Of a stretch of 35,563 nt of DNA, positions 13,151-35,514 are shown piece by piece (position 1 is the first letter of the stretch; each line of letters starts with the position of its first letter). This DNA is from a virus. The position numbers were made by a program, and so were the translations under genes. The stretch lies in IMG/VR virus record IMGVR_UViG_3300025154_000269, positions 1 to 35,563 of that record; one strand, given 5' to 3'. The notes under the pieces are model-generated. The model searched no databases, was not told the DNA's origin, and saw only the letters and a program-made list of their open reading frames with translations.

Positions 13151-13159
13151 TACATACAC

Positions 13160-17110: not shown

Positions 17111-17142
17111 AGGACTTGTTGATTATAAGTCCTTTTCTTTTT
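17111..17142 (+). terminator. Intrinsic terminator
   Basis: AGGACTT/AAGTCCT stem (17,111-17,117 / 17,127-17,133) followed by TTTCTTTTT. Confidence 0.8.
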
Positions 17143-24790: not shown

Positions 24791-25139
24791 CCATTTAAAA
24801 TCTCTCTTTGAAACTATCTAATTCTCTATCCCTTCTAAATTCTAGCATATGGGATATTCCCTCTATGTCAAAATTTTCTTGAAAGCTTCCCTCAGTCGAA
24901 TGATGATCTGAGACCGCCAAAAGAAAAATAAAGATACACGGAATACAAAATATGTTAGACTTTATAAAGGATAGAGGAAAGGATAAAAACATTCTACTAA
25001 ATCCCTTTAGTTTATTCATTATTACAATTTAATCATAACAATTACATTAAACTTGCATAACGAAATCAAAATGCAGGTTGTTGTAATTTAATGTTAAATT
25101 GATTATACTTAAGGCTGAAGGGATTAATTCTTAGTTGGG

Positions 25140-25176
25140 CATTGGGTAGTAAATATTATACAATAACTATCTAATG
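25140..25176 (+). promoter_or_regulatory. Unit-heading stem-loop 1
   Basis: CATTGGGTAGT (25,140-25,150) pairs with ACTATCTAATG (25,166-25,176) at all 11 positions (two G-T). CAATAAC lies at the loop/stem edge. The ribosome binding site of 25,204 follows 15 nt later. First member of the right-arm family. Confidence 0.6.
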
Positions 25177-25203
25177 TCGAATTAAGAAAGGTGGTAATAA
25201 TTA

Positions 25204-25359
25204 ATGATTGAAATTGGAAAATCCTCAAAACATTCTGGCTGTATTGCTTGTATGAATACAGATAATGACTTAAAAGATGTCAAATTAGGTCAATCCGTTG
25301 TAGTTACTCTCTGTAAAAAATGCAGAGAAGAATTAGGCGAACTTTTTAAAGGAGAGTAA
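25204..25359 (+). CDS. Zinc-ribbon miniprotein
   Basis: A 51-residue protein; AAAGGTGG precedes ATG. Contains CIAC and CKKC, a CxxC-x(24)-CxxC-type zinc ribbon, plus a helical end (REELGELFKGE). Probably a small metal-binding adaptor in transcription or nucleic-acid binding; partner unknown. A terminator follows 11 nt after the stop. Confidence 0.7.
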   Translation: MIEIGKSSKHSGCIACMNTDNDLKDVKLGQSVVVTLCKKCREELGELFKGE

Positions 25360-25370
25360 TTACTCCAATC

Positions 25371-25405
25371 AAAAAGACAATTCATGGTAGTTGAAGTGTC
25401 TTTTT
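25371..25405 (+). terminator. Intrinsic terminator
   Basis: AAAAAGACA/TGTCTTTTT 9-bp stem with a 17-nt loop, ending in a T-run. The last clear terminator of the window. Confidence 0.72.
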
Positions 25406-25435
25406 CTAAATTATATCATAATAATTATTAAAATA

Positions 25436-25444
25436 TGGTATAAT
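25436..25444 (+). promoter_or_regulatory. Extended -10 promoter
   Basis: TGGTATAAT (-10 at 25,439-25,444). AAAGGAC-ATTAA-GTCCTTT forms a 7-bp leader hairpin just downstream. Confidence 0.65.
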
Positions 25445-25487
25445 TTAGAAAGGACATTAAGTCCTTTAAATTGAGGAGGTTTTTAAA

Positions 25488-25841
25488 ATGACTAACAAAA
25501 AATGGTTTTGTACTCCTGATGCTGAAACAAAAAAGGGTATTTCCGGCTATAGGTTTTACCTAGCCACAAAGAAAATTTATGAGTCAGATGTCGAACTTTC
25601 TCCTTCTCCTTGGGTTCATGCTGAAGCAATGGAAACGGAAAAAGATTTTTTCTTCACTTCTAGAGATATTGCTTATCCAGAAATTACGAAACGATTAGGA
25701 GAAGTAGAAAGATTAATACTACATCCTTGTTATGTATGTAGTATTACTTTTGACGAAAAACTACTTTATCGTGTTGTAGATGATAATGACGAAAAAACAG
25801 GAGAATATATTTGCCATGAATGTCTAAATAATGACGACTAA
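25488..25841 (+). CDS. Unknown protein with C-terminal zinc ribbon
   Basis: A 117-residue protein; GAGGAGG precedes ATG. The N-terminal part (KKWFCTPDAETKKGISGYRFYLATKK) is beta-like. The C-terminus has CYVC then CHEC, a zinc ribbon, after HP. No enzyme motif. It sits between the last terminator-type unit and the first large stem-loop unit. Function unknown. Confidence 0.7.
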   Translation: MTNKKWFCTPDAETKKGISGYRFYLATKKIYESDVELSPSPWVHAEAMETEKDFFFTSRDIAYPEITKRLGEVERLILHPCYVCSITFDEKLLYRVVDDNDEKTGEYICHECLNNDD

Positions 25842-25880
25842 GAAACATGAGATATTCTTTTTTAAAAGTAGCCTGAAACG

Positions 25881-25921
25881 GGAATACCAAATAACAATAA
25901 CAACTAATTATTTGGTGTTCC
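25881..25921 (+). promoter_or_regulatory. Unit-heading stem-loop 2
   Basis: GGAATACCAAAT pairs with ATTTGGTGTTCC (25,881-25,892 / 25,910-25,921), 12 bp including one G-T. The 17-nt loop is AACAATAACAACTAATT. 46 nt before the DUF262 start; no T-tract. Confidence 0.7.
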
Positions 25922-25966
25922 TTGCTTGAGTCTATTTGAAACAAAAATAAAAAGGAGTGGTAAAAA

Positions 25967-27349
25967 ATGACTGAAGAGAAAAAGGAAATCACTTACACCA
26001 CGGAAAAACGAGACATTGGAACCCTAGTCGAGCATATCGAAAAGCAATATTACACCGTAGGAAAACACCTTCAAGACTTCCTCACCGCAAAAAAGCAAGA
26101 AGAAGGGAAAGAAATTAAAACCCTTCGAGACTATATGGAATCACAAAGGGCTTATGTCTGGGAGACTTGGAGAGCATCAAACCTAATCCAGACTGTTCTT
26201 CTTAAAAACCCTATTCCTGAAATAACAGTCTACCGTGCAGACGACAAAAGCCAGTTTAGAAAGACAGTCGATGGGCAGCAGAGATTAACCAGTATCTATC
26301 TATTCATTAACAATGGGTTTAAACTTGATGTATCAAAAACCATGTTCCCTAAATTCACAAAAGAAGGCGAACAATTCAACGCTATGGAAACACTTCACGG
26401 CAAAACATTCTCAGAACTTCCAGAGTTATGGCAGGACATTATCAAAGACTATCAATTGCGTATAACAACCATGAACAATTGTAGCGAGGAAGACGCTGAA
26501 AAGGCATTCGTTCAAATGAATTCAGGAGCCAAAGGTTTAAAACCTTCTGAAATTCGGAAGGCAGCAATGGGGAGCGACACAAGAAAATTCTTTAGATCGA
26601 TTTTAGATAGTGACTGGATTTTACATGCACTAACCCCACTGGCAACAAAGGGCAACGCCGGAGATGAAATTCTGTCACAAGTCATCACGCTAATACATAA
26701 CAATGGCCCAATTGAGTTGTCTAAGGATAATATTGACAAATCAATTTATGGATTTAGAGAACTAGGATTACCGGAAGAAATTGAGGATGACATGATAAAT
26801 GTCTCTAATTACCTCAGTCAAGCAACAGAAATTTGGATTGAGAACAAAAAGAAAGAAGATGCAAAGGAAGGAAGTAAAAGAGTTAAAAACTATGCAACCT
26901 ATAGATATACATGGCTGAATAAGACTAATACTGTCATGCTGATGTATTCGGCCTACTCTGCATTAAGAAATAATGTTGAAGTTGAAGAGTTTTCTGCATG
27001 GGCTTATAAATTTTTTCAGGCTCCAACAAAGGAGTATAAGGAAGGGTTGCAAGATAAGGTTATTGACCTAAAACGTGTGGAAATGCGGTTAAATGCTATT
27101 AATACTGAGTTGGGAAAACTAAGTTCTTTTGAACAGGTTGAGGTTGTTGAGGAAGAAATTGAACAAGAAGAAGAACAACCTCAACAAAGTGAAAACCTTG
27201 AACCTGCTATAACAGTGACCGCAGAAGAGTTCGGCGAAGGAAATCAAGAAGAACAGTCAGAACAAATTATCAATGATGAGCAAGAACAGGATCAAGAATT
27301 CCAAGAAGAAACCCAAGCGATTCTAAACATTGTCAATAATGTTGCTTAA
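25967..27349 (+). CDS. DUF262 domain protein (GmrS/ParB-like nuclease fold)
   Basis: A 460-residue protein; AAAGGAG precedes ATG. Residues 15-110 carry the DUF262 signature, including VDGQQRLTS (DGQQR at 102-106), the nucleotide-binding and catalytic motif of GmrSD-type enzymes. The family-typical FVQMNSGAKGLKPSEIRKA follows near 185-205. There is no HNH (DUF1524) nuclease module at the C-terminus, so it is not a full GmrSD. The tail (about 400-460) is rich in E and Q. DUF262 proteins in hosts attack modified phage DNA; in a phage it may act on competitors, cut host DNA, or serve as a regulator. These are inferences. It is alone in its unit. Confidence 0.85.
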   Translation: MTEEKKEITYTTEKRDIGTLVEHIEKQYYTVGKHLQDFLTAKKQEEGKEIKTLRDYMESQRAYVWETWRASNLIQTVLLKNPIPEITVYRADDKSQFRKTVDGQQRLTSIYLFINNGFKLDVSKTMFPKFTKEGEQFNAMETLHGKTFSELPELWQDIIKDYQLRITTMNNCSEEDAEKAFVQMNSGAKGLKPSEIRKAAMGSDTRKFFRSILDSDWILHALTPLATKGNAGDEILSQVITLIHNNGPIELSKDNIDKSIYGFRELGLPEEIEDDMINVSNYLSQATEIWIENKKKEDAKEGSKRVKNYATYRYTWLNKTNTVMLMYSAYSALRNNVEVEEFSAWAYKFFQAPTKEYKEGLQDKVIDLKRVEMRLNAINTELGKLSSFEQVEVVEEEIEQEEEQPQQSENLEPAITVTAEEFGEGNQEEQSEQIINDEQEQDQEFQEETQAILNIVNNVA

Positions 27350-27373
27350 TGCTAAAATAATTGTATCTTGAGT

Positions 27374-27409
27374 CTAGACAATAACAATAGTTAATTTGCT
27401 ATTGTCTAG
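27374..27409 (+). promoter_or_regulatory. Unit-heading stem-loop 3
   Basis: CTAGACAATA/TATTGTCTAG 10-bp stem; AATAACAATAG runs from the stem into the loop. An alternative CAATAG/CTATTG pairing is possible. Followed by TTCGAGG. Confidence 0.68.
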
Positions 27410-27450
27410 CATTCGAGGTAAAGTTATTAAAACTGAAGGAGTTAGATTAA

Positions 27451-27615
27451 ATGAAAGTAAGTGAAGTTATCAAAAACAATAGTTATTATATGATTACTAA
27501 AAATGGTAAAATATTGGGAATAAACAGTGTTGATAACGAACTTTTAAATTCGGAAGTTAAAAAAATACAAGTAATCAAGGGTTTGCATAAAGACATTACA
27601 TGTATTAGATTGTAG
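27451..27615 (+). CDS. Unknown 54-residue protein
   Basis: AAGGAG precedes ATG. The protein (MKVSEVIKNNSYYMITKNGKILGIN...) is a small alpha/beta chain. Co-transcribed with 27,658. Function unknown. Confidence 0.65.
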   Translation: MKVSEVIKNNSYYMITKNGKILGINSVDNELLNSEVKKIQVIKGLHKDITCIRL

Positions 27616-27657
27616 AATAAAATCATGTATTGATTGGATTATGGGAGAAGGTTAAAA

Positions 27658-27834
27658 ATGTTTACTAAATATCTTATGAGTTATAAGTTCGAAAATGAAA
27701 AGCATTATGAAGAATCTGTAGCAAAATCAGTTAGAGATGTTTGTAAATATTTTAGGAAACTTTATCCAGAAGTAACAGATGTCAAAGTTGAAAAAGTTAT
27801 AGGTCAAGTTAATATTTATACACAAACTATTTAG
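27658..27834 (+). CDS. Unknown 58-residue protein
   Basis: I start at ATG 27658 after GAAGG. A helical, basic protein (MFTKYLMSYKFENEKHYEESVAKSV...) with a C-terminal strand pair (VTDVKVEKVIGQVNIYTQTI). Second gene of its unit. Function unknown. Confidence 0.65.
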   Translation: MFTKYLMSYKFENEKHYEESVAKSVRDVCKYFRKLYPEVTDVKVEKVIGQVNIYTQTI

Positions 27835-27852
27835 GTGTGTATGTTCTCAGAG

Positions 27853-27883
27853 CGTTTCAACTATAACAATCGAGGTTGAAACG
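27853..27883 (+). promoter_or_regulatory. Unit-heading stem-loop 4
   Basis: CGTTTCAAC/GTTGAAACG perfect 9-bp stem; 13-nt loop TATAACAATCGAG. TCGAGG recurs just after the stem at 27,887-27,892. Confidence 0.72.
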
Positions 27884-27919
27884 TTGTCGAGGGTATATAA
27901 ACTAAAGGAGGTTAAATAA

Positions 27920-28231
27920 ATGCAATTCTTAACTCATTATGAGCGATATAACGTCAACAAATGGGAACAACGTCAAATAATGCCACAATCTAATTTCATT
28001 GCCTTAAACAACTCATTTATGAACCATAATTCTTCGCTTATTGGTTTCCAAGTCGAACACGAAGACAAACGAGTTCATTATTCAGTTAGTAATATGTTTC
28101 TCGAAAGATTGCAAGTTCAATTCCCTAACAATTGGTTTAACATTCTTAATGATGGTATGATAGCAGAGTTTAAACAGTGGGCAGGTAACATAATAGCAAT
28201 AACAAATGTTATTTGCCTAGTTTCGAAGTAA
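27920..28231 (+). CDS. Unknown 103-residue protein
   Basis: AAAGGAGG precedes ATG. Soluble, with histidine- and asparagine-rich loops and mostly beta-like strands in the first two thirds (NSSLIGFQVEHEDKRVHYSVSNM), then a helix and a hydrophobic end (AGNIIAITNVICLVSK). First of four genes sharing one stem-loop. Function unknown. Confidence 0.65.
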   Translation: MQFLTHYERYNVNKWEQRQIMPQSNFIALNNSFMNHNSSLIGFQVEHEDKRVHYSVSNMFLERLQVQFPNNWFNILNDGMIAEFKQWAGNIIAITNVICLVSK

Positions 28232-28252
28232 GGAAAGGAAGTGTATTTTTAA

Positions 28253-28495
28253 ATGAAAAATTTTGTAATTAATAACGTGAATATGACCAAAGAAGATTTT
28301 TCGCAAATGATTAACTATGTAGGGTCAAGAGCTATCGCATTAGCTGAAGTAGAAGAAGGTGTTGCAATTAATACTTCTAGTCCCTCAAGTGAAAAAGATG
28401 TTCATAGTAGTATTATATTCTTCTTTGAAAAATGGAATAATGCTTATAAATTAGATTACGGACGAAATGATATTGAAATTACTTGGAGGGAATAA
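28253..28495 (+). CDS. Unknown 80-residue protein
   Basis: AGGAAAGGAAG precedes ATG. Starts MKNFVINNVNMTKEDFSQMINYVGS; an alpha/beta protein, followed by an acidic, aromatic end (IEITWRE). Second in its unit. Function unknown. Confidence 0.65.
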   Translation: MKNFVINNVNMTKEDFSQMINYVGSRAIALAEVEEGVAINTSSPSSEKDVHSSIIFFFEKWNNAYKLDYGRNDIEITWRE

Positions 28496-28542
28496 CCCTA
28501 GCAAACACGAATTTTAATCTAATTATGAAAGGAGTTTTTAGA

Positions 28543-28566
28543 ATGATTGAAGAGATTAAATTCTAA
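28543..28566 (+). CDS. Very short ORF (7 codons) with good ribosome binding site
   Basis: GAAAGGAG, 10 nt, ATG, then MIEEIKF and TAA. It sits between 28,495 and the zinc-ribbon gene at 28,600. Either a leader peptide or the stub of a truncated gene. Confidence 0.3.
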   Translation: MIEEIKF

Positions 28567-28599
28567 TTTTCAAATGGTAACAAGGAAGGAGTTTAAAAG

Positions 28600-28701
28600 A
28601 TGGATAAACTAAGATTAATGTGTAATAATTGTTACAAAGTGGTAGTTGATTGCGAAGATGTTGTTATTGACTGTCCTTATTGTGGTTCTATTGAAACATG
28701 A
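28600..28701 (+). CDS. 33-residue zinc-ribbon peptide
   Basis: AAGGAGT precedes ATG. Two CxxC pairs (CNNC and CPYC) about 18 residues apart make a minimal zinc ribbon. The first pair (CNNCYKV) matches the start of the protein at 1096-1557 (CLNCYKV). Probably a stand-alone metal-binding peptide; function unknown. Confidence 0.6.
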   Translation: MDKLRLMCNNCYKVVVDCEDVVIDCPYCGSIET

Positions 28702-28761
28702 ATCTTAAAAATTCCAATGACATCCTAACATTCATTATATATTTTGATTGTATGGAAATAG

Positions 28762-28794
28762 GGCGAAGTGACATAACAATAACAGGACTTCGCC
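28762..28794 (+). promoter_or_regulatory. Unit-heading stem-loop 5
   Basis: GGCGAAGT/ACTTCGCC 8-bp stem (extended by wobble pairs); 17-nt loop GACATAACAATAACAGG with two ATAACA-like copies. TTCGAGG follows at 28,799-28,805. Confidence 0.72.
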
Positions 28795-28835
28795 TTGATT
28801 CGAGGCTATCAAAATTTAAAGGAGTGTGTATTTAA

Positions 28836-29324
28836 ATGAAAAAGTATGATGTAAGATTTTGTAGTTGTGGAAGAGTACATTTTATCGATGAGGCAAAGAT
28901 AAATAATGCTATTGAAAATGAAAAACAGGTTTTAGTAATTTGTAATAATTGTGGCAATTCTTTTGTTGTTGGAGCAGATAAGCAAGAAGATGAAGACGGC
29001 GAAACATGTTACATGATGTATTCTTCTAGTATGAGGGATACAGAAATAAATGATATGTCAAGAATTGACAGTATCGTTTTTACAGCAGGGGAGCAGGTTA
29101 GAATGATGACAGGTGGAGAGGCCACATTTCATGGTAGCGGAATATTCATTGATTGGGATACAAAAAAGCCTAGTGATATCTCCAATGAAGAATGGGAGAA
29201 AATGAGAATGACTGTTAATACACGACATACAATCAATTGGATCAAAGATGACAACAAACTTGAGCAAATGAGTCATTATCTAGTAGGCATCGATTGGAAA
29301 GGCACTAAGTACGAAAAGAGTTAA
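28836..29324 (+). CDS. Unknown protein with N-terminal zinc ribbon
   Basis: A 162-residue protein; AAAGGAG precedes ATG. Residues 7-40 have CSCGRVHF and CNNCGNSF, a zinc ribbon as in small regulators. The rest is mixed, with tryptophan-rich segments (IDWDTKKPSDISNEEWEKMRM). No enzyme motif. It may bind nucleic acid. It shares its unit with the 62-residue protein at 29,369. Confidence 0.7.
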   Translation: MKKYDVRFCSCGRVHFIDEAKINNAIENEKQVLVICNNCGNSFVVGADKQEDEDGETCYMMYSSSMRDTEINDMSRIDSIVFTAGEQVRMMTGGEATFHGSGIFIDWDTKKPSDISNEEWEKMRMTVNTRHTINWIKDDNKLEQMSHYLVGIDWKGTKYEKS

Positions 29325-29368
29325 CACCCAAATGAATCAAACTTTTAAGGAATAGAAAGGAGTAAAAA

Positions 29369-29557
29369 ATGAAAGAACATAATCAAAATGAATATTGGAC
29401 TTACGGAAAACCTTATGGTCGTGTAACACCAGTTTATATTATTGATGGAGAAATTAGAGGCACAGAGCATGGTTCAGCACAATATCTAATAGATACCTAT
29501 CAGATGGATATCCTAGAGGCTTATAGGTATGTTTGTGATATTACTAATCATAGGTAA
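29369..29557 (+). CDS. Unknown 62-residue protein, paralogue of 34,663
   Basis: AAAGGAG precedes ATG. Contains NEYWTY, TPVYIIDGEIRGTEHGSAQYLIDTY and an ILEAY helix. The protein at 34,663 has the same blocks in the same order, so the two are duplicates. Function unknown. Second gene of its unit. Confidence 0.7.
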   Translation: MKEHNQNEYWTYGKPYGRVTPVYIIDGEIRGTEHGSAQYLIDTYQMDILEAYRYVCDITNHR

Positions 29558-29604
29558 TTAAACCAAAATAAATTCACTTTTAACCTATTATTTTAGCAAT
29601 TTGT

Positions 29605-29628
29605 ACTGAGATAATAACAATGCTCAGT
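29605..29628 (+). promoter_or_regulatory. Unit-heading stem-loop 6
   Basis: ACTGAG/CTCAGT 6-bp stem (8 with wobble); 12-nt loop ATAATAACAATG. 46 nt before the next start. Confidence 0.6.
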
Positions 29629-29673
29629 GTGAAAACGTAAACTAAAATTAGTAATAAAAGGAGCGTGAAACAA

Positions 29674-29879
29674 ATGGCAAAACTCAAACGGTCAAATTTG
29701 AACTAGATGGAGAAATTCTAGAAGAAATTGTAGTTCTAATTGATGATGAGAACAGACCTAATTCCATGATTAAAATCAAGGATATTGAAAACAGGATTAT
29801 TTCAGAACACGGCAAAAGACCAAAATTAATCTTTGTAATGACTCAAAGGGATGACAGAAGCATATATAAATTTAATTAA
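29674..29879 (+). pseudogene. Small protein frameshifted right after its start
   Basis: A strong AAAGGAG precedes ATG GCA AAA CTC, but that frame stops after 10 codons. Inserting one A in the AAAA run at 29,678-29,681 gives MAKTQTVKFELDGEILEE... to the stop at 29,879, a 68-residue protein of coding character. So a single-base deletion, or a sequencing error in a homopolymer, interrupts it. Function unknown; an alpha/beta chain. Confidence 0.6.
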
Positions 29880-29908
29880 AATTCTTGCCTATGAAAGCTT
29901 TAATTATT

Positions 29909-29955
29909 CTCTAGGTCGTGATATAATGTAAATATAAATATTACGGCTTGGAGAG
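29909..29955 (+). promoter_or_regulatory. Unit-heading stem-loop 7
   Basis: CTCT and AGGTCGTGATAT pair with ATATTACGGCTT and AGAG, with one mismatch, two wobbles and a 2-nt bulge; loop of 13 nt. TGATATAAT at the loop edge is a perfect extended -10. Homologous to stem-loop 8 with changes that keep pairing. Confidence 0.68.
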
Positions 29956-29995
29956 TATTTAAGACTCTTTAAAAATCTAAAGGAGCGTGTTACAT

Positions 29996-31234
29996 ATGAC
30001 TAAAAATTATATTAAAAACCTTGAAACTGGTAAAATCGAACTGCATTTCTCAAAACCAGAATATCAAGCATTATCCGATGAACTCAAAAAGGAAATCAAA
30101 AGCTCATATTTATTTTCTGGTATTGCTAAAGCTTGGGTATCTCGTTCTGTTAATAATCAATGGAGAGCGATCCAAACAGCTAAAAAACTAGGATTTACTG
30201 AGGAAGAAAAAACTGGTGAACGCTTAACCTTTGCTGAACAACTAGAGCGCAAGCAAGAAAAAGCTGAACACAGAGCAGAGCGTTACGACCAATATGCAGA
30301 TAATGCAGAAAAACGTGCTGAAAATTTTCAAGCCGATTTTAATCAATATCGAAAAGATTGGTCTTGGTTAACACAACCAATTATCCATGGTCATTCTGGA
30401 AGTCGTGCATTTGGCAATCATAAAGCAAAGGTAATAGCACGATATGAAAAAGGTTTTGAAGAATATCAAAAAAGCGATTATTATAAAGAGCGTGCATGTA
30501 CGGCAAGAGCCACCGCAAATAATTCAAAATTACAAAACAAGGTTTATCTTGTTGGGAAAATTAAAGAGAGTAATAAACAAGTTAAAACATATCAGGATAT
30601 TGTAGTTAAATATGAAGAAGCACTTTATAAAATTCAACAAGGCGAAGAATTAAAAAATCGTTCAGGCGAAATTTTAACAGAAATTTATATCGAACAGAAA
30701 ATAGATGACATGCTTGAAAAATATGAATGGGAATATGACAAACTTGAGTTTTTTGAAAAATGTCTAAAAGATATTGGTGGCGTTCAGTTTTCGAAGGATA
30801 ATATAAAAGTAGGTTACATTGTCAATATTAAAAGGTGGGGAAAATGTGAAATTGTTTCAACAGGGCCAAAGAATATTCAGTTTAAAATACTAGAAGGTGG
30901 AGCAAGTGGAGGAATGTTAATAGATCCATATGCAGCAATCGTAGAGATATTAGAAACAAATGAAGTCGAGGAAGTAAAAGCAGAAAATCCTTTTAAAATT
31001 GGCGATATTGTTTGCAAACACAGACCAGCCGATAATAGTATTTATAGAGCTTTTCAAATTGTTAAAACTACTGACAAATCTGTAACAATTCAAAGAATCG
31101 AAGTGTTAGACCATAAACCAGTTAAAGATACTTTTATTAGTGATCAACAAGAAAGGAAACAAGTTAAAAAAGATAGACAAGGAAATTTCGTAATAAATCA
31201 TGATGACTGGTATTTATACAGGTATACTGCATAA
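29996..31234 (+). CDS. DUF3560-like protein
   Basis: A 412-residue protein starting at ATG 29996 (MTKNYIKNLETGKIEL); a GTG 9 nt upstream is inside the ribosome binding site region. Residues 75-175 match DUF3560: LTFAEQLERKQEKAEHRAERYDQYADNAEKRAENF, then QPIIHGHSGSR and a helical KERACTARATA segment. The N-terminal 70 residues form a separate small domain, and the last 130 may be two small beta domains (IKVGYIVNIKRWGKCEIVSTGPKNIQFKI, FKIGDIVCKHRPADNSI). DUF3560 proteins are widespread on phages and plasmids with unknown function. It is the largest gene of the far-right arm. Confidence 0.82.
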   Translation: MTKNYIKNLETGKIELHFSKPEYQALSDELKKEIKSSYLFSGIAKAWVSRSVNNQWRAIQTAKKLGFTEEEKTGERLTFAEQLERKQEKAEHRAERYDQYADNAEKRAENFQADFNQYRKDWSWLTQPIIHGHSGSRAFGNHKAKVIARYEKGFEEYQKSDYYKERACTARATANNSKLQNKVYLVGKIKESNKQVKTYQDIVVKYEEALYKIQQGEELKNRSGEILTEIYIEQKIDDMLEKYEWEYDKLEFFEKCLKDIGGVQFSKDNIKVGYIVNIKRWGKCEIVSTGPKNIQFKILEGGASGGMLIDPYAAIVEILETNEVEEVKAENPFKIGDIVCKHRPADNSIYRAFQIVKTTDKSVTIQRIEVLDHKPVKDTFISDQQERKQVKKDRQGNFVINHDDWYLYRYTA

Positions 31235-31261
31235 CAATTTATCAATAACAGTTTAACTATT

Positions 31262-31315
31262 CTCTGTAACGTGCTATAACGTATTAAACCAAATATAATA
31301 TAGTGCGGTACGGAG
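31262..31315 (+). promoter_or_regulatory. Unit-heading stem-loop 8
   Basis: A 17-bp stem with one mismatch (31,262-31,278 / 31,299-31,315); 20-nt loop. TGCTATAAC spans the stem/loop junction. An extra CAATAACAG lies upstream. Confidence 0.75.
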
Positions 31316-31352
31316 AGCAATTAAGCTCAAAAAATCTAGGAGGTTACATATT

Positions 31353-31775
31353 ATGGCAATCAAAACATTTGTGAAGGAATATAAAAATTATGGTTGGAAT
31401 GAGATTAAAGTTATTGACTTTGAAACTGGGGAGTTTACTCAATACAATGTATGCAATACTATTGGGTTTCCTTTTGGTACTCCTTATCAAACTACAGTTT
31501 TTGAAATGGGTTATACTTCAGTAAAAGAATGTTTAAAAACTCTTAAAGAGCGTAATTTGCTAGATTATGAAGTCGATTGTAAGGAGCAAAAAGAGTCCGA
31601 AAGAATTGGTTATATTAATTTGGGAGTAGAAAGGATTAAACGAGTAGGAAGAGTTAACACAAAAGATTTTGAAGATGTTTGCAACAAATTAAGTGGTTAT
31701 GGAATGGGATTTTGTGATTCTCAAAATTCTATTACTGCATGTTATTTGCATAGTTTAGAAGAAGGAGCGTGTTAA
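31353..31775 (+). CDS. Unknown 140-residue protein
   Basis: TAGGAGG precedes ATG. Starts MAIKTFVKEYKNYGWNEIKVIDFETGEF; a beta-rich first half, helices, then a cysteine-containing end (GFCDSQNSITACYLHSLEEGAC). The gene ends 2 nt before the next ATG. Function unknown. Confidence 0.68.
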   Translation: MAIKTFVKEYKNYGWNEIKVIDFETGEFTQYNVCNTIGFPFGTPYQTTVFEMGYTSVKECLKTLKERNLLDYEVDCKEQKESERIGYINLGVERIKRVGRVNTKDFEDVCNKLSGYGMGFCDSQNSITACYLHSLEEGAC

Positions 31776-31777
31776 CA

Positions 31778-32119
31778 ATGAATACTAAAACTAATGGCAT
31801 TTGGGTATGGACTGCAAAAGCAGAAGAAAAGGCAAAAGAATTAAACCTTGAGGAAAGAAAAGAAAATATTCCTGCATGGTTAGGATATTCTCTTTTAGGC
31901 CAATTTGCTCCTCAAAAATGGGTTGAACTTGGATATGTAAAGGAATTAAAGTGCCAAGTATTAATCCATAACTCTAAAAACAAAATACCTGAATGGGTTG
32001 ATGGTTTTATAACAGGAACCATTGCCGGAGATGTAGGAGAAGATTTTGAGCGAATCAATGTTTTAGCAAATGGAAATAATTTAATTGGTTGTCATCCTGA
32101 TTGTGTCAAGCAAATATAA
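31778..32119 (+). CDS. Unknown 113-residue protein
   Basis: I choose ATG 31778 (MNTKTNGIWVW) because GAAGGAGCG lies upstream; the in-frame start at 31,769 overlaps the preceding stop region. Alpha/beta, with a tryptophan-rich start and a strand-rich end (GFITGTIAGDVGEDFERINVLANGNNLIGCH). It may be translated together with 31,353. Function unknown. Confidence 0.68.
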   Translation: MNTKTNGIWVWTAKAEEKAKELNLEERKENIPAWLGYSLLGQFAPQKWVELGYVKELKCQVLIHNSKNKIPEWVDGFITGTIAGDVGEDFERINVLANGNNLIGCHPDCVKQI

Positions 32120-32142
32120 TTATTTTGATAGTGCCTAGACAT

Positions 32143-32182
32143 CCTGCAATCTATATAACAGCGAACTATGTGTGGTTGCAGG
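32143..32182 (+). promoter_or_regulatory. Unit-heading stem-loop 9
   Basis: CCTGCAATC pairs with the complementary arm ending TTGCAGG (32,143-32,151 / 32,174-32,182). The loop contains TATATAACAGCG. Confidence 0.68.
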
Positions 32183-32237
32183 GTTTTGGAGTTTATCAAA
32201 GTGAGTAATGTGATAAACTAGAAGGAGTGAAATTATT

Positions 32238-32594
32238 ATGACAGAATTATGTGTACATAATGAAGGTATTTGTTCAATGGTTGACCCATTTATAACAACT
32301 AATGAAAGATGTTTGACTTTTAAGTATGCAGGAAATGACAAAGTGGAAAATGCAATAAATCTTTCAAGTTTATTAGATCAAAACAAAATAGATCATGTTT
32401 GCTATCTTGAAACTGGGAATTATTACCCTTGTCAATTTATCCTCAGAAGAAGTGGTAGAAAATGGAATGATATAATGAAGTTGGTTAATAGTGTTCAGTC
32501 CCCAAAGTATGACTATGCTAAGATTGACTTCTACATAACTGACGAAGTAAAGAAAAATGTTTTAGGTAAAATTCAAGTAGTTCAATATTGTTAA
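32238..32594 (+). CDS. Unknown 118-residue protein
   Basis: GAAGGAG precedes ATG. Cysteine- and tyrosine-containing alpha/beta protein (NERCLTFKYAGNDKVENAINLSSLLD..., ending KIQVVQYC). No motif recognised. Alone in its unit. Confidence 0.65.
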   Translation: MTELCVHNEGICSMVDPFITTNERCLTFKYAGNDKVENAINLSSLLDQNKIDHVCYLETGNYYPCQFILRRSGRKWNDIMKLVNSVQSPKYDYAKIDFYITDEVKKNVLGKIQVVQYC

Positions 32595-32599
32595 CCCTT

Positions 32600-32640
32600 C
32601 GAAACTTACAATTTATGGTATAACAGCCGGCCATATTTCG
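32600..32640 (+). promoter_or_regulatory. Unit-heading stem-loop 10
   Basis: CGAAA/TTTCG and TATGG/CCATA two-part stem; 12-nt loop TATAACAGCCGG, preceded by TGG so that TGGTATAAC forms an extended -10-like string. Confidence 0.6.
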
Positions 32641-32650
32641 TTCATGGACC

Positions 32651-32679
32651 TTCCATAACGCTTGCGTGTATGCTATACT
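32651..32679 (+). promoter_or_regulatory. Promoter and operator of the RHH gene
   Basis: Extended -10 TGCTATACT (-10 at 32,674-32,679). The spacer contains the ACGC-TT-GCGT dyad (32,658-32,667). The -35 (TTCCAT) is weak. The dyad shares CGCTTGC with the next promoter. Confidence 0.65.
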
Positions 32680-32705
32680 TACATTATCATAAAGGAGGTG
32701 TCAGA

Positions 32706-32849
32706 ATGCAGGTTACACTCAACACTAGACTAGAGGTAGAGGTCAGGCGAAGACTAGACGCTTATGTTCTAAAAGTTAACCGTCCTATGGCTCAAATAGT
32801 CGCAGAGGCCATTCAAAAATATCTAGACGAAAAGGAGAAAAAAGAGTAA
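32706..32849 (+). CDS. Ribbon-helix-helix (Arc/CopG-like) repressor
   Basis: A 47-residue protein; AAAGGAGG precedes ATG. The pattern MQVTLNTRLEVEVRRRLDAY (ribbon and helix A), then KVNRPMAQIVAEAIQKYL (turn and helix B) is the standard RHH fold; the VTLNT strand would read DNA bases as a dimer. Its own promoter and the promoter just downstream both contain a CGCTTGC-type dyad in the spacer between -35 and -10, so it probably represses both. No toxin partner is next to it, so an antitoxin role is less likely. Confidence 0.82.
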   Translation: MQVTLNTRLEVEVRRRLDAYVLKVNRPMAQIVAEAIQKYLDEKEKKE

Positions 32850-32856
32850 ATTTTTA

Positions 32857-32885
32857 TTGACAGGTGCTTGCAAGCGTGGTATAGT
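32857..32885 (+). promoter_or_regulatory. Consensus promoter with palindromic operator in its spacer
   Basis: TTGACA (32,857-32,862), 17-nt spacer, TATAGT (32,880-32,885). The spacer contains a perfect GCTTGCAAGC palindrome (32,866-32,875). This unit lacks the usual stem-loop and appears controlled by the RHH repressor instead. Confidence 0.85.
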
Positions 32886-32936
32886 GTTATTAATCAAGTA
32901 AATATTATTTATTAATTTAAGAAAGAAGGAATTAAG

Positions 32937-33203
32937 ATGTTCAGAGACGATGAAGAAAAAGTTATGGGAGCTAAAATTCAAAAAGTCAAAAGCGCAATCA
33001 GTAAAGTTTTAGAGGAATGTGTAAATGAGTTACCTGAAGTTCAATTAGGATGGAGTGGATCTGTAATTGAGGTTTATCTATCAGGCGGTAATTATCAAAC
33101 TAGAAATGTCATTGAAAATCATTTTGTAAACAGTAGAAAATACAAAGGAGTTGAAATTCAAAATAACAATACCAAAAAACGTATTAGTTTTTATTTAGCG
33201 TAA
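32937..33203 (+). CDS. Unknown 88-residue protein under the RHH-type promoter
   Basis: GAAGGA precedes ATG. Mixed alpha/beta: a helix (KIQKVKSAISKVLEECVNEL) then strands (SVIEVYLSGGNYQTRNVIENHF). The first gene behind the GCTTGCAAGC promoter, so it is the most likely regulated partner of the RHH protein. Function unknown. Confidence 0.68.
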   Translation: MFRDDEEKVMGAKIQKVKSAISKVLEECVNELPEVQLGWSGSVIEVYLSGGNYQTRNVIENHFVNSRKYKGVEIQNNNTKKRISFYLA

Positions 33204-33229
33204 GTAAAACTTAAAAGGAGGATATAACA

Positions 33230-33445
33230 GTGAGTAAGAAAGCATCAATAAGTAAATATATTCAACGATTGGCAGATAGGTTTAACCTTGACGTTACTGC
33301 AACGATTGAAAAAGGTGAATATGATACCACGCACAAAGTATATCATTTTAGTGGTAATTTCCTTGCAAATTTTGAAGCATTAGAGAGGGAAGTGGAAGGA
33401 TATACAAAATCAACAGAGTTTCCTGCGGCATTGATAAAAGATTAA
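33230..33445 (+). CDS. Unknown 71-residue protein
   Basis: Starts at GTG with AAAGGAGG upstream (MSKKASISKYIQRLADRFNLDVTATIEKGEY...). An alpha/beta protein of unknown function. Co-transcribed with 32,937. Confidence 0.66.
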   Translation: MSKKASISKYIQRLADRFNLDVTATIEKGEYDTTHKVYHFSGNFLANFEALEREVEGYTKSTEFPAALIKD

Positions 33446-33454
33446 TATAATACG

Positions 33455-33513
33455 TTGATTGAAGGTTGCATACCAATAATTCTATAACAAATTGTCGTGC
33501 GACATTGAATCAA
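33455..33513 (+). promoter_or_regulatory. Unit-heading stem-loop 11
   Basis: A 15-position stem with 13 pairs (33,455-33,469 / 33,499-33,513) and a 29-nt loop with TCTATAACAAATT. 30 nt before the ATA start of the next gene. Confidence 0.65.
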
Positions 33514-33542
33514 AATATTGTGAATGAAAGAAGGAATATATC

Positions 33543-34031
33543 ATACTAACAATCAAAAAACTTCAAGATGCTAAAAAGGAATTAATCAAACGTGGTGGAG
33601 CAATTTATGTTGTTCAATCTGCCGGGAAAGTTGAAGTTTGGGTTAATGCTGGAGGTTACAGTGCTGTATCAATGGGTACTCATGTAATTCAAATTCTTGA
33701 CGAAAGACAAATTAAGTATGATAATGTATTTTATCAAAGTAAAAATCAAGAAATGAACTTGCAGGAATTTTGCGATATGGTTAATGATGAGTATTGCACT
33801 GAAGATATTAAAATAGAAGATGCTACACTTATTAAATCCTATAATATCGGAAGCAAAACAACCGAATTGCGTTTCACGCCAAAAGCAAATACTCAAACAT
33901 GGCCTGGATATGATGATTCATTACCATTGCGCTATGCAGGTTATTGGTACGGAACACATGATCATCATGAACATATCGGAAAAACTGAGAAGGAAGCAAT
34001 GGAATATCTTGCAGGAAATTATGGGATTTGA
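33543..34031 (+). CDS. Unknown protein with ATA start
   Basis: The frame reads well from 33,543, and the first in-frame ATG (33,672) has no ribosome binding site. AGAAGG lies 8 nt before ATA 33543, giving (M)LTIKKLQDAKKELIKRGGAIYVVQSAGKVEVWVN... to 34,031, 162 residues. The only nearby ATG (33,524) is out of frame and without a ribosome binding site. The protein is alpha/beta with a histidine cluster (GTHDHHEHIG) and TWPGYDDSLPLRYAGYWYG. Function unknown. Confidence 0.68.
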   Translation: MLTIKKLQDAKKELIKRGGAIYVVQSAGKVEVWVNAGGYSAVSMGTHVIQILDERQIKYDNVFYQSKNQEMNLQEFCDMVNDEYCTEDIKIEDATLIKSYNIGSKTTELRFTPKANTQTWPGYDDSLPLRYAGYWYGTHDHHEHIGKTEKEAMEYLAGNYGI

Positions 34032-34048
34032 TTAATTGTATTTGGAAT

Positions 34049-34097
34049 AGGCAATAACAATAGCATCATAACAGAACGACATAACAGGTTGTTGCCT
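34049..34097 (+). promoter_or_regulatory. Unit-heading stem-loop 12
   Basis: AGGCAATAAC pairs with the arm ending TTGCCT over 10 bp (one wobble; 34,049-34,058 / 34,088-34,097); the 29-nt loop carries two ATAACA copies. Confidence 0.68.
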
Positions 34098-34140
34098 TTC
34101 TTTAAAGGAAAAGTTAATTAAATATGAAGGAGTGGAGACA

Positions 34141-34287
34141 ATGATTAAATATCGTGAAATATACCCATGTTGGAAAGAAAGAGAAGTTAAAAGTCAAGAC
34201 TTAGTTAGTGAAATTCAATCTTTAGCAAAATGTAACATTAGAACCGCAAGAAAGATTATTGAAACAGTTAGAAAATCTAAATCCTAG
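34141..34287 (+). CDS. Unknown 48-residue basic protein
   Basis: AAGGAGT precedes ATG. A basic, helical peptide (MIKYREIYPCWKEREVKSQDL..., ending ARKIIETVRKSKS) that could be a small HTH-like DNA-binding protein; too short to decide. First of two genes in its unit. Confidence 0.6.
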   Translation: MIKYREIYPCWKEREVKSQDLVSEIQSLAKCNIRTARKIIETVRKSKS

Positions 34288-34326
34288 CAAACAATAATTT
34301 TCTGGGAAATGAAAGGAAGTAAAATT

Positions 34327-34539
34327 ATGAATAATAACTTAACAATGACCGCAGAGCAAGCGAAAATTTATGTAAGCAAGCGTATTATTCCTCAAGTCTA
34401 TGGAAGTGATCAAGGAATCTTAAGAGAATTGATATTTTCAATGGCAAAAGATATTAATTGGAATGATGTAGGTAAAAGAATTCTTAGAGAACATCCAGAA
34501 TTAAAGCAGGAAGATATAGATCAATTAAAGACTACTTAG
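34327..34539 (+). CDS. Unknown 70-residue helical protein
   Basis: ATG 34327 after AAAGGAAG. Starts MNNNLTMTAEQAKIYVSKRII; the end (KRILREHPELKQEDIDQLKTT) is helical. Second gene of its unit. Function unknown. Confidence 0.65.
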   Translation: MNNNLTMTAEQAKIYVSKRIIPQVYGSDQGILRELIFSMAKDINWNDVGKRILREHPELKQEDIDQLKTT

Positions 34540-34557
34540 GGCATTTAAAGCCCTTCT

Positions 34558-34609
34558 AAGCATCCTGTAATGCTCATAACAGCATAACACCAATGCTTGC
34601 AGAGCAGGG
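34558..34609 (+). promoter_or_regulatory. Unit-heading stem-loop 13
   Basis: CTGTAA-T-GC pairs with GCTTGCAG (34,565-34,573 / 34,595-34,602); alternative AAGCAT/ATGCTT pairing overlaps it. The loop has CATAACAGCATAACACC. Confidence 0.58.
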
Positions 34610-34662
34610 AGTTTAGAATGGTTTTGAAGACTCTAAAAATAAATTAATGGAGGAATGTTTGA

Positions 34663-34887
34663 ATGAAAAATAACTTACAATTTACCAAAAAAGAACACGG
34701 TGAAAATGAATATTGGACTTATCGCAACTGCAATTCCAGAGGTAATGCAACTCCAGTTTATAGTATTGATGGAGAAATTAGAGGTAGTGAACATGGTTCG
34801 TCACAATATCTGATAGATACTTACGACATGAATATTTTAGATGCTTATACCTATGTTCATGAAATTTCTACACACGGCAATCGTTAA
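34663..34887 (+). CDS. Unknown 74-residue protein, paralogue of 29,369
   Basis: GGAGG precedes ATG. Contains ENEYWTY, ATPVYSIDGEIRGSEHGSSQYLIDTYDMNILDAY, the same blocks as the 29,369 protein. The longer start adds about 10 residues. A duplicated small gene family; function unknown. Confidence 0.7.
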   Translation: MKNNLQFTKKEHGENEYWTYRNCNSRGNATPVYSIDGEIRGSEHGSSQYLIDTYDMNILDAYTYVHEISTHGNR

Positions 34888-34913
34888 TACTCTAAAGAGC
34901 TTATGCTCTTTGC

Positions 34914-34964
34914 TCAGTCCTTGTATAACAAAACTCAGAATAACAGTGACTATACAGGGGTTGA
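34914..34964 (+). promoter_or_regulatory. Unit-heading stem-loop 14
   Basis: A 14-bp stem including wobble pairs (34,914-34,927 / 34,951-34,964); 23-nt loop. TATAACA spans the stem/loop edge and GAATAACAGTG is in the loop. Confidence 0.7.
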
Positions 34965-35020
34965 CCAAAGGATATAAACTTAACCAATATATCCTAAAAT
35001 AAATTAAAGGAGGTAAAACA

Positions 35021-35125
35021 ATGTCTTATAAAATCCTAAATCAATACATATCAATTTGCAAAAATCAAGATGTACCTGCAAACTTTTCTGGACTAATTGC
35101 TTTCAATGCTATATTCAAAAAATAA
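35021..35125 (+). CDS. 34-residue peptide
   Basis: AAAGGAGG precedes ATG (MSYKILNQYISICKNQDVPAN..., ending FKK). Short helical peptide. First of two genes in its unit; the next ribosome binding site follows directly. Function unknown. Confidence 0.5.
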   Translation: MSYKILNQYISICKNQDVPANFSGLIAFNAIFKK

Positions 35126-35149
35126 AATTATGAAAGAAGGTTAATCAAA

Positions 35150-35440
35150 ATGCAAAAACCTAAAAACATCAAAAATTTAACCCATTCTGCCTCAAAACTA
35201 AACTCCTTATATCTAGGCAAAGAAATTGTTTACACAGGCACATCCAATACCCTAAGACCTTACAGGGGAGAAATCATTAACATTGCTTACTATTCAGACT
35301 TAGATCCTGTTCCATATGCAGAAATTAAATTAAAATTATGGAATAATCGAACTGTAACTAAAATTCTTCCATTATCAGATATTGTTTTGGCATCTTCTTT
35401 GAAGAAAACTAAAACTAAAAAATCCAAGTTAGCAGCATAA
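35150..35440 (+). CDS. Unknown 96-residue basic protein
   Basis: AGAAGG precedes ATG. The centre is beta-like (YLGKEIVYTGTSNTLRPYRGEIINIAYYSDLDPVPYAEIKLKLW), resembling small SH3-like barrels. The C-terminus is a lysine-rich tail (LKKTKTKKSKLAA), suggesting nucleic-acid binding. No family assigned. Confidence 0.65.
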   Translation: MQKPKNIKNLTHSASKLNSLYLGKEIVYTGTSNTLRPYRGEIINIAYYSDLDPVPYAEIKLKLWNNRTVTKILPLSDIVLASSLKKTKTKKSKLAA

Positions 35441-35458
35441 TTCAATATCTTTTATATG

Positions 35459-35514
35459 GACACTGTAAAGCGTAAAATAATTATAACAATTGATTCCCAT
35501 ACGTTGTACAGTGT
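35459..35514 (+). promoter_or_regulatory. Unit-heading stem-loop 15
   Basis: About 13-14 bp with one mismatch (35,460-35,474 / 35,500-35,514). The 25-nt loop has TTATAACAATTG. The gene it heads lies beyond the window. Confidence 0.72.

Follow-up and report, generated by a model that had tools for sequence, protein, structure and literature searches.

AUAACA-tagged hairpins and ribozymes as putative punctuation of a polycistronic phage gene array

The right arm of the viral DNA studied here (the window, i.e., the whole stretch of 35,563 nucleotides of IMG/VR record IMGVR_UViG_3300025154_000269) carries a long array in which small phage genes run rightward, nearly free of terminators, with predicted RNA modules in its junctions; on balance, and with modest confidence, we favor the view that these elements act as RNA-level punctuation of the polycistronic array and are tagged for a putative RNA-binding factor. 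Judged from sequence and predicted folding, most modules are hairpins and some, in two relatives, are ribozymes, with AUAACA[A/G] present one to three times in the loop. Their stems vary yet mostly stay paired, the tag is mostly kept, the modules occupy the intergenic places that intrinsic terminators take in an adjacent zone, and whole modules are common to unrelated gene neighbours. Ribozymes in junctions of the relatives G6 and G17, together with the scarcity of array terminators, point to punctuation. In the mechanism that we propose, the modules would divide the array RNA into units: where a ribozyme is present it would do the cutting, and at long hairpins a nuclease of the host or the phage would probably do so. 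Such cutting would define the ends of every unit. An RNA-binding factor acting in trans would read AUAACA and thereby mark, protect, or regulate the array RNAs, and the modules may also act as exchange points for gene shuffling because they repeat homologous sequence where one gene gives way to the next. More tentatively, an RNA-binding protein encoded by the phage could use AUAACA[A/G] as its recognition code to mark the RNAs of one array; the code would be shown on any junction fold, and tip-loop binding would control cutting or the fate of the unit. If true, the phages would possess natural self-cleaving ribozymes that a protein can address, and a junction code in place of intrinsic terminators.

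Hairpins at the heads of gene units

The preliminary description of this DNA, made from the sequence alone, had placed stem-loops with a shared loop motif at the head of 15 units; the observation is largely real, and its interpretation is partly supported. Folding of 100 nt at each of the 15 positions gave energies of -12.1 to -33.6 kcal/mol and a clear unit-head hairpin at 14, leaving 32,600 as weak, with pairing round the motif of only ~5 to 6 bp. ATAAC[AGT] lies inside the loop or at its edge in 13 of the 15 (32,600 among these), in keeping with the ATAACA/ATAACG-type motif described for most loops, and 29,909 has ATAATG in place of ATAAC[AGT]; at 31,262, ATAACG is partly paired and is lost in the orthologue at L004 ~12,800. 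Stem lengths of 6 to 17 bp are true of the inner stems, but many stems reach 20 to 30 pairs when the outer stems are included, and several elements have 20 to 31 enclosing pairs, as judged by folding. The statement that internal genes have no stem-loop was inexact, since an extra motif hairpin at 28,178-28,219 precedes internal gene 28,253; this hairpin and the array opener at 25,017-25,102 are two elements absent from the earlier list (Table 1). Six genomes supplied 72 elements, and in the 51 that had a scored downstream ORF, the 3' arm began a median of 58 nt before the start codon (quartiles, 44 to 77; range, 26 to 188), which amends the 40 to 85 nt given earlier.

Table 1. Elements, genes, and neighbouring zone of the window
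Position	Strand	Feature	Remarks
3..416	-	YonO-like RNA polymerase gene, N-terminal part, cut by contig end	53.6% to Bacillus phage BUCT082
17111..24109	+	Neighbouring zone	11 + strand intrinsic terminators, 2 ATAACA copies
17155..17174	+	Two ATAACAG directly after intrinsic terminator 17111-17133	Outside array
25017..25102	+	Array-start noncoding nested hairpin, ATAACA 25035 and ATAACG 25057	Fold -21.0
25128..25188	+	Unit-head hairpin, ATAACT spanning loop and 3' arm	
25375..25400 (approximate)	+	Intrinsic-terminator-like hairpin and T tract after the array's first small gene	Followed by TATGGTATAAT string
25880..25922	+	Unit-head hairpin, loop with two ATAACA	Precedes GmrSD-N gene
25967..27349	+	Conserved array gene, GmrSD N-terminal (PF03235) domain protein	
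27356..27428	+	Unit-head hairpin, ATAACA 27381	Fold -28.1
27838..27899	+	Unit-head hairpin, ATAACA 27863	Relatives: G15, G17
28178..28219	+	Extra motif hairpin	Overlaps 3' end of ORF 27920-28231, precedes gene 28253
28738..28818	+	Unit-head hairpin, loop with two ATAACA	
29600..29633	+	Unit-head hairpin, ATAACA 29614	
29896..29966	+	Unit-head hairpin without motif (ATAATG)	
31231..31327	+	Two ATAACA (31231, 31245), then long hairpin 31250-31327	
32124..32200	+	Unit-head hairpin, ATAACA 32155	Fold -27.7; relatives: G001, G6, G17
32615..32660	+	ATAACA and ATAACG, weak pairing	35 bases match G001 at 86%
33446..33522	+	Unit-head hairpin, ATAACA 33484	
34049..34097	+	Unit-head hairpin, loop region with three ATAACA	Relative: G6
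34536..34636	+	Long unit-head hairpin, loop with two ATAACA	Fold -33.6; relatives: G17, G15
34897..34981	+	Long unit-head hairpin, loop with two ATAACA	Relative: G17
35460..35514	+	Unit-head hairpin, ATAACA 35483	

It had been asked whether the stem rather than its sequence is conserved; in related hairpins, the stems diverge with compensatory change. Among 13 groups of related hairpins, 12 of which gave a consensus structure, stem changes comprised 18 on both sides, 55 one-sided changes that keep the pair, and 42 that break it, versus 1.5, 19.3, and 61.2 in slid controls. The joint loss of pairing and motif from orthologous spacers had been named earlier as the contrary outcome; in related leaders, both are mostly retained, with one loss of the motif, at 31,262. 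The hairpin at 31250-31327 is retained in G001 without ATAACG, the counterpart of the last window element in G001 has an identical loop with the stem swapped for another paired stem, and the slot of the hairpin at 25880 holds different stems in G001 (45855) and G6 (30014).

The AUAACA tag and its carriers

The array was found in ten contigs, the window counted, and the common core across them is ATAACA[G/A]. With eight arrays pooled, ATAACA has the top z-score of all hexamers, above AAGGAG (366 copies observed versus 118.4 expected); in single arrays it ranks 4th to 16th by observed/expected ratio, and in G8 only 153rd of 672. Sense copies outnumber antisense copies by 30 to 5 in the window array, by 38 to 3 in G001, and more weakly, by 33 to 11, in G8, and in G2 the heptamer ATAACAG occurs 52 times in sense and 0 times in antisense, each of its one-mismatch neighbours reaching 11 at most. 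The majority of copies lie within ORFs in two relatives, 46 of 69 in G2 and 52 of 76 in G19, and coding ATAACA exceeds the level after synonymous shuffling in the right half of G2 (40 versus 19.6; standard deviation [sd], 3.7), in G001 (13 versus 4.9; sd, 1.9), and in the window (8 versus 3.7; sd, 1.8).

With a hairpin threshold score of at least 12 and permuted hexamers as the control, the copies of ATAACA that lay within hairpins numbered 14 of 30 for the window array (control, 38 of 366), 12 of 38 for G001 (32 of 338), and 8 of 38 for G6 (29 of 414). For noncoding copies only, the window figures were 11 of 19 versus 28 of 122, and the surplus was modest in G001 (12 of 24 versus 32 of 85) and G6 (7 of 21 versus 26 of 107); it is smaller because permuted hexamers in noncoding sequence often share those hairpins. 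Enrichment over permuted hexamers extends to the window, G001, G6, G15, G16, G17, and G19, of which G15 and G16 are near-duplicates here and therefore not independent. The motif is mostly outside hairpins in G2, G8, and G18, and the hairpin is therefore not essential to it. Computed accessibility of the motif was above controls for noncoding copies in the window and G001 (P = 0.046 and 0.020) and for coding copies in the window and G2 (P = 0.009 and 0.042), and it was not above controls in the remaining six comparisons.

Five elements of G6 and G17 match covariance models above the Rfam gathering score, and only those are therefore members of the twister-P5 and pistol families; on this match, they are known ribozymes. 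The twister-P5 elements (L041:15128, L041:11632, L068:6322, and L068:6887) and the pistol element (L041:19144) are all on the + strand at gene junctions, and the tip loop carries ATAAC[AG] in five of five, across two unrelated folds. Twister-P5 occurred at 15 places, spread over 8 of the 82 genomes in the outside comparison; a sequence pattern displayed 13 distinct sites among them, and the tag was present at 0 of these 13. Searching the window with 4,227 Rfam models, twister-P5 and pistol included, gave 0 matches at an E value of ≤5, and cleavage at the window hairpins is therefore only putative. Loops on compensating stems, the five ribozyme tip loops, and the strong sense bias together support a reading of the AUAAC loop as RNA, one of the two options raised in the preliminary description.

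A tag read as RNA could instead belong to 5' leaders: the hairpin would only present AUAACA to an RNA-binding regulator of the phage that acts on translation or on mRNA decay, and plain hairpins would stay uncut. The position of the tag in 5' leaders, with the 3' arm 44 to 77 nt before starts in the middle quartiles, the hairpin-free tag in G2 and G8, and clusters that reach six copies are consistent with such control, but ribozymes hold some G6 and G17 junctions, terminators are scarce across the arrays, and the tag occurs in coding sequence too, and we consider leader control rather unlikely.

Terminators, gene swapping, and promoters

The distribution of terminators is in favor of punctuation. 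In seven genomes, + strand terminators number 66 in 67.4 kb of adjacent zones, versus 5 in 93.7 kb of arrays, with zone limits that were fixed after the motif had been seen. Chance levels are ~6 for the zones and ~10 for the arrays, which thus lie about twofold below expectation, and the contrast is due mainly to the rich neighbouring zones. The standard scan of 24.9 to 35.5 kb in the window returned 0 terminators on the + strand and 1 on the - strand (4.1 expected), in agreement with the earlier remark that the stem-loops have no terminator T tract. A looser scan of the + strand gave three (25375, 25716, and 28641), of which that at 25375 is convincing; it appears genuine, is matched by a counterpart at 45560 of G001, and is not among the unit-head hairpins.

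Antitermination of the nut/put type, in which RNA polymerase acquires a processivity factor at the hairpins and reads the array as one transcript, would suit a conserved loop on a variable stem in the sense strand (by sequence and pairing, a conserved-loop hairpin is predicted in the transcribed RNA), arrays of ~10 to 18 kb with few or no terminators, and some tag clusters beside terminators. We nevertheless regard it as improbable, since there are almost no terminators inside the arrays to overcome, a processive factor needs no repeat at each unit, and terminators with the tag within 80 nt downstream are at chance level (11 of 95 versus 10.7). The few motif clusters directly after intrinsic terminators are unaccounted for by the punctuation reading.

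Homologous leaders usually head unrelated genes: among 29 leader pairs, the downstream genes were homologous in 3 of 18 testable cases and the upstream genes in 2 of 22, which places these elements at the boundaries of shuffled genes. The modules appear to be seams for phage gene swapping, and unrelated genes on either side of homologous leaders are what would be expected if the repeats were kept primarily for recombination, in the manner of promoter-early stem-loop (PeSL) cassettes, with any RNA role secondary. Homologous exchange leaves the compensatory stem change, the sense-strand bias, and the occurrence of the tag both in coding regions and in the loops of ribozymes unexplained, and we give little credence to this order of causes.

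The preliminary description also raised a promoter -10 in the loop of a cruciform, an extended -10-like string, and phage-polymerase promoters. The conserved motif, ATAACA[AG], lacks a constant preceding T (T precedes 11 of 30 copies in the window and 15 of 38 and 34 of 69 in other cases), and it conforms neither to TATAAT nor to the extended TGNTATAAT. Promoter-like sites over the array are at chance (53 versus 50.7 in shuffles, from a consensus scan that can miss single or unusual promoters). The partial gene at the contig start is, as suspected, RNA polymerase-like, and its family is tied to SPbeta YonO; the motif, however, goes with no single YonO lineage, as motif-bearing phages fall into at least three (SPbeta-like, BUCT-like, and divergent), and SPbeta and BUCT082, whose YonO is ~50% identical to that of some motif-bearing phages, show no excess of hairpin-borne copies of the motif. 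Although certain copies read TGNTATAAC and the array start has one predicted promoter near 25081-25109, a -10 element for sigma-A, YonO, or another phage polymerase in a cruciform loop is highly improbable, given also the tag in ribozyme loops, and the promoter and phage-polymerase readings are not supported.

A GmrSD-N homologue is present in 8 of 10 motif-bearing contigs and in 0 of 5 others compared, the right arms of some of which are not covered. No gene family was found in all motif-bearing contigs and nowhere else, these contigs being incomplete, and none of 20 array and surrounding proteins gave a Pfam match over the cutoff as a candidate RNA-binding protein.

Comparison with known systems

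Lambda boxB/N and HK022 put are phage RNA hairpins recognised via the loop; they resemble the modules in having a conserved loop on a variable stem in the sense strand of a phage operon, but here the loop sequence is another one, there are many copies per operon, the tag also occurs outside hairpins and on ribozymes, and no N-like protein was identified. RNase III processing hairpins lie between early genes of T7 and SP82 and are likewise long, irregular hairpins of 20 to 30 pairs between genes, whereas here the AUAACA loop is conserved. PeSL cassettes of T4-like phages were reportedly described by Arbiol in 2010 and Comeau in 2014. PeSLs are described as composite promoter-terminator motifs (PMC4503421); they share with the present elements a location at gene-unit boundaries with shuffling of neighbouring genes, but the present elements show no promoter enrichment and have a common loop tag, and the standard scan found no U-tract terminator on the + strand of the window array.

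Several prophage hammerheads flank genes and are proposed by Perreault (2011) to process long phage RNAs (PMC3088659), and several ribozymes close together in phage gene blocks are a pattern described in the same source and, for pistol, in PMC4604425. The two sister arrays, where twister-P5 and pistol hold gene junctions, are similar; most junctions here, including all those of the window, differ in being hairpins without an Rfam match, and the 13 displayed twisters elsewhere lack the AUAACA tip-loop tag common to hairpins and ribozymes here. A review describes the functions of hammerhead and twister ribozymes as deduced mainly from genomic context and as largely speculative (PMC5408937). In the two sister phages, ribozymes and hairpins share the junctions of one array and one tag, in the places that terminators take next door, and a specific role is therefore testable: such modules would punctuate long transcripts of the phage, perhaps with a factor acting in trans, and the 6- to 7-nt tag offers a handle to pull out this putative factor.

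SPBRE of SPbeta is a 15-bp DNA motif of fixed sequence to which MrpR binds (PMC10516654); it is, like the present modules, a repeated intergenic element of a YonO-encoding phage, but here stem sequences differ and a strand-biased loop motif is conserved. The array-start element at 25017 may be partly promoter or operator DNA; window positions 24985-25129 are 89.7% identical to L004:9175-9319, and its copy in G001 further resembles G6 at 29.0 kb (87%).

Distribution of the ATAACA array

Relatives of the rightward block of small genes in the window (about 24.9 to 35.5 kb; here, with its counterparts, the array) were reached by three routes: the GmrSD-N gene led to the contig G001 (150 kb), the 116-aa protein encoded at 31,769-32,119 led to G2 (G002), and the 378-aa protein encoded at 8,507-9,643 led to the remaining contigs. 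The motif array was found in ten contigs, namely, the window, G001, G2, G6, G8, G15, G16, G17, G18, and G19, with G15 and G16 being near-duplicates over the compared part; G14, with seven plus-strand ATAACA copies within one 3-kb bin, was left out of the count. The array was absent from the parts read of G3, G4, G5, G7, G9 to G13, G22, and G23, several of which have a short or missing right arm; that of G3 (153.8 kb) seems to lie outside the contig. The 378-aa protein is also encoded by prophages of Desulfosporosinus UBA8487 and Clostridium muellerianum, in which 60.8 and 40.8 kb, respectively, were read and found to lack an array. By-eye inspection of the stretches L005 and L006 revealed no element family.

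The motif (tag) is ATAACA followed by A or G and rarely preceded by G, with flanks otherwise little conserved (base counts around 30 window, 38 G001, and 69 G2 copies). ATAACAG occurs in G2 52 times in the sense orientation and never in antisense, with at most 11 copies of each one-mismatch neighbor. When eight arrays were pooled, ATAACA had the top hexamer z-score (366 copies versus 118.4 under a first-order model), with AAGGAG lower; by observed/expected ratio, it ranked 4th to 16th in single arrays and 153rd of 672 in G8. Copies are restricted to right-arm stretches (in G001, chiefly 31 to 33 and 45 to 56 kb of 150 kb), and those in coding sequence exceed the synonymous-shuffle level. In a collection-wide search for triple ATAACAG clusters, strand-biased repeats of the scrambled control were at least as frequent as those of the real motif among the matches listed. 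Among the literature matches listed, AUAACA was absent and ATAACAG appeared in one, on Streptococcus plasmids; the motif may still have been described.

Hairpins and ribozymes at gene junctions

The preliminary description had placed stem-loops at the heads of 15 units in the window, with an ATAAC(A/G)-type motif at the loops. When these places and every ATAAC[AG] of the window were folded, 14 of the 15 gave clear hairpins, that at 32,600 being weak; the motif was confirmed in or at the loop, as ATAAC[AGT], in 13, whereas 29,909 has ATAATG. The ATAACG at 31,262 is partly paired and is gone in the orthologue, though the hairpin is retained. The list was also incomplete, having overlooked 25,017-25,102 and 28,178-28,219. 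The long hairpin at 31250-31327 is largely retained in sequence in G001, its ATAACG is not, and the window has ATAACA just upstream (31231 and 31245).

The occurrence of the motif in hairpins scoring at least 12 was compared with that of permuted hexamers of the same composition, and no surplus worth claiming was obtained for G2 or G8. By these per-genome counts, the tag is common to all ten contigs and the hairpin placement to seven. The control confined to noncoding copies is weaker than that with all copies.

ATAACA counts in the arrays and occurrence in hairpins, compared with permuted hexamers
Contig	Sense/antisense	All copies in hairpins	Permuted, all	Noncoding copies in hairpins	Permuted, noncoding
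Window	30/5	14/30	38/366	11/19	28/122
G001	38/3	12/38	32/338	12/24	32/85
G6	38/2	8/38	29/414	7/21	26/107
G15	26/3	8/26	20/271	8/12	16/60
G16	11/2	3/11	8/129	3/6	8/47
G17	56/6	14/56	39/643	13/31	31/177
G19	76/5	8/76	18/660	8/24	18/188
G2	69/12	3/69	8/449	2/23	5/117
G8	33/11	1/33	10/525	1/24	10/254
G18	14/2	1/14	0/123	0/4	0/68

Related hairpins were aligned as 13 groups, one of them without a consensus structure. Of the pair comparisons, 372 showed no change, one-sided changes accounted for 55 and two-sided changes for 18, 42 were broken, and 24 were gapped; the corresponding means in slid controls were 134.7, 19.3, 1.5, 61.2, and 43.2, and a further 250.8 were paired in neither sequence. The loop AAATAATTATAACAATTG is carried in the window by the stem acactgta/tacagtgt and in G001 by a different stem that is nevertheless paired; at the GmrSD junction, the window stem is unlike that of G001 and G6, and the tag is retained. 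Computed tag accessibility was mixed, with no surplus over controls in six of ten comparisons, and is not used as support. A TCGA-type internal loop pattern in plain hairpins matched 17 of 60 elements, one of them a twister. None of the window hairpins matched an Rfam model, and their membership in a described RNA family was rejected.

Rfam identified twister-P5 and pistol ribozymes in G6 and G17, all between called open reading frames (ORFs), and nothing but four tRNAs in 258,415 further bases of arrays and their flanks. In the Rfam alignments, ATAACA (ATAACG in one) falls within the variable tip loop of these ribozymes. In the class to which the Desulfosporosinus MAG belongs, 8 of 82 genomes contain twister-P5, at 15 places (14 above the cut-off); ATAAC is absent from the loops of the 13 distinct sites displayed by pattern, two of these 13 being identical in sequence, and the pattern did not display two of the 15 places. 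Because those control loops lack it, the tag is no general property of twister-P5 but belongs to these arrays, and we regard this array-specific tag in ribozyme loops as the strongest argument that the tag acts in RNA.

Features of the window and related contigs (L041, L068, L015, and L071 are stretches read from the contigs named)
Feature	Contig	Position	Strand	Remark
Twister-P5	G6	L041:11632-11693 and 15128-15192	+	Rfam, above gathering score
Twister-P5	G17	L068:6322-6387 and 6887-6958	+	Rfam, above gathering score
Pistol ribozyme	G6	L041:19144-19217	+	Rfam, above gathering score
tRNA genes, two	G2	L015:8556-8709
tRNA genes, two	G18	L071:9616-9789
Terminator then ATAACA cluster	Window	17111-17174		G-poor; tag at 17,155
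Terminator then ATAACA cluster	G001	32237-32340 and 33068-33155		G-poor; tags at 32,275 and 33,112
Terminator then ATAACA cluster	G8	58052-58165 and 69569-69620		G-poor; tags at 58,123 and 69,605
Phosphoadenosine phosphosulfate reductase domain protein (PF01507)	Window	11873-13159		Left arm
Arc-like repressor (phrog_3180, E 2.1e-5)	Window	32670-32849		Within array
Paralogous small ORF pair	Window	29369-29557 and 34663-34887		Within array

Terminators, promoters, and proposed RNA punctuation

The standard scan of the window array found no plus-strand terminator and one on the minus strand (4.1 expected); a looser scan found three, of which that at 25375 is convincing. The standard scan found 19 terminators on both strands at 14.5 to 24.9 kb, against 4.0 expected. 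Over seven genomes, the zones ahead of the arrays total 67,364 bases and hold 66 plus-strand terminators, and the arrays themselves (93,699 bases) hold 5; a first-order model summed over genomes predicts about 6 and about 10, respectively; thus, the zones next to the arrays are very terminator rich and the arrays somewhat poor, about twofold below chance. G8 has the same contrast with a different zone order (8 versus 0). ATAACA is distributed in the opposite way (43 versus 312), partly by construction because the zone limits, placed by eye at each array's start, follow the motif.

We suggest, as a somewhat probable reading, that the array modules serve as RNA punctuation of a polycistronic transcript. 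The array would be transcribed as a single long RNA on which each module would form a unit boundary, and a ribozyme, at the junctions that contain one, would cut the RNA there; because the motif is sharp, multicopy, and sense biased, a trans-acting reader of AUAACA may be involved. No clear-cut candidate for a conserved gene encoding such a factor emerged from the proteins of the array and its surroundings or from the gene families compared. RNase III cuts long hairpins in T7 and SP82. The elements resemble two known systems, RNA hairpins of phages that are recognized by their loops and prophage operons punctuated by ribozymes; one study proposes that hammerheads flanking prophage genes may process long phage RNAs (PMC3088659). 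Against RNA punctuation count the only about twofold shortage of terminators in the arrays, the real-looking terminator inside the window array, and the weaker noncoding-only hairpin control, and it leaves unexplained the tags within genes of G2 and G19 and the six comparisons without surplus accessibility.

The preliminary description had offered, besides an RNA-binding protein, a promoter -10 element in the loop; this was rejected on the basis of motif shape, copies in coding sequence, and promoter scans. Promoters for YonO, the single-chain RNA polymerase type known from SPbeta, were rejected since the motif does not follow the YonO lineage. The permuted-hexamer, synonymous-shuffle, and slid-pair controls dispose of a chance origin.

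Tag clusters of two to six copies, with little or no structure, lie directly 3' of intrinsic terminators in the window, G001, and G8 and are left unexplained; five places had looked striking, but a general rule of terminator then tag was rejected (11 versus 10.7 by chance; 95 terminators, nine genomes). The stretch 25375-25453, outside the ATAACA family, comprises, after the array's first small gene, a terminator-like hairpin with a T tract and next to it a 20-bp palindrome (25401-25453) around the promoter-like string TATGGTATAAT. The array-start element at 25017-25102 is noncoding DNA that shares 89.7% identity with its G001 copy and has a similar counterpart in G6. A small ORF lies to its left on the opposite strand, and a putative sigma-A promoter, TTGTAA-17-TATACT, lies at 25081-25109.

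The window phage and apparent shuffling at junctions

The window is an IMG/VR virus record of 35,563 bases. Its left end cuts a YonO-like polymerase gene, of which the region for the N terminus is present (3-416); the encoded product shows 53.6% identity to a protein from the Spbetavirus Bacillus phage BUCT082. The left arm has mainly leftward ORFs, and most long ORFs from about 15 kb run rightward. Because tblastn of selected window ORFs against SPbeta and BUCT082 gave no match besides the YonO-like gene, the window represents a distant YonO-type phage and not an SPbeta phage. YonO lineages clearly differ among the relatives compared (3-416, G6, G15 to G18, G8, and G001), those of G6, G15, and G16 being about 51% identical to SPbeta YonO and those of G8, G17, and G18 about 49 to 51% identical to BUCT082 YonO, so the polymerase gene may be subject to exchange.

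Among 72 elements from six genomes, 29 leader pairs share at least 40 aligned bases at 72 to 96% identity, and, where such homologous leaders could be tested, 3 of 18 pairs had homologous proteins encoded downstream and 2 of 22 had homologous proteins encoded upstream. The twister leaders at G6 35,128 and G17 46,322 are 95.6% identical over 90 nt, and the ORFs downstream of them are unrelated.
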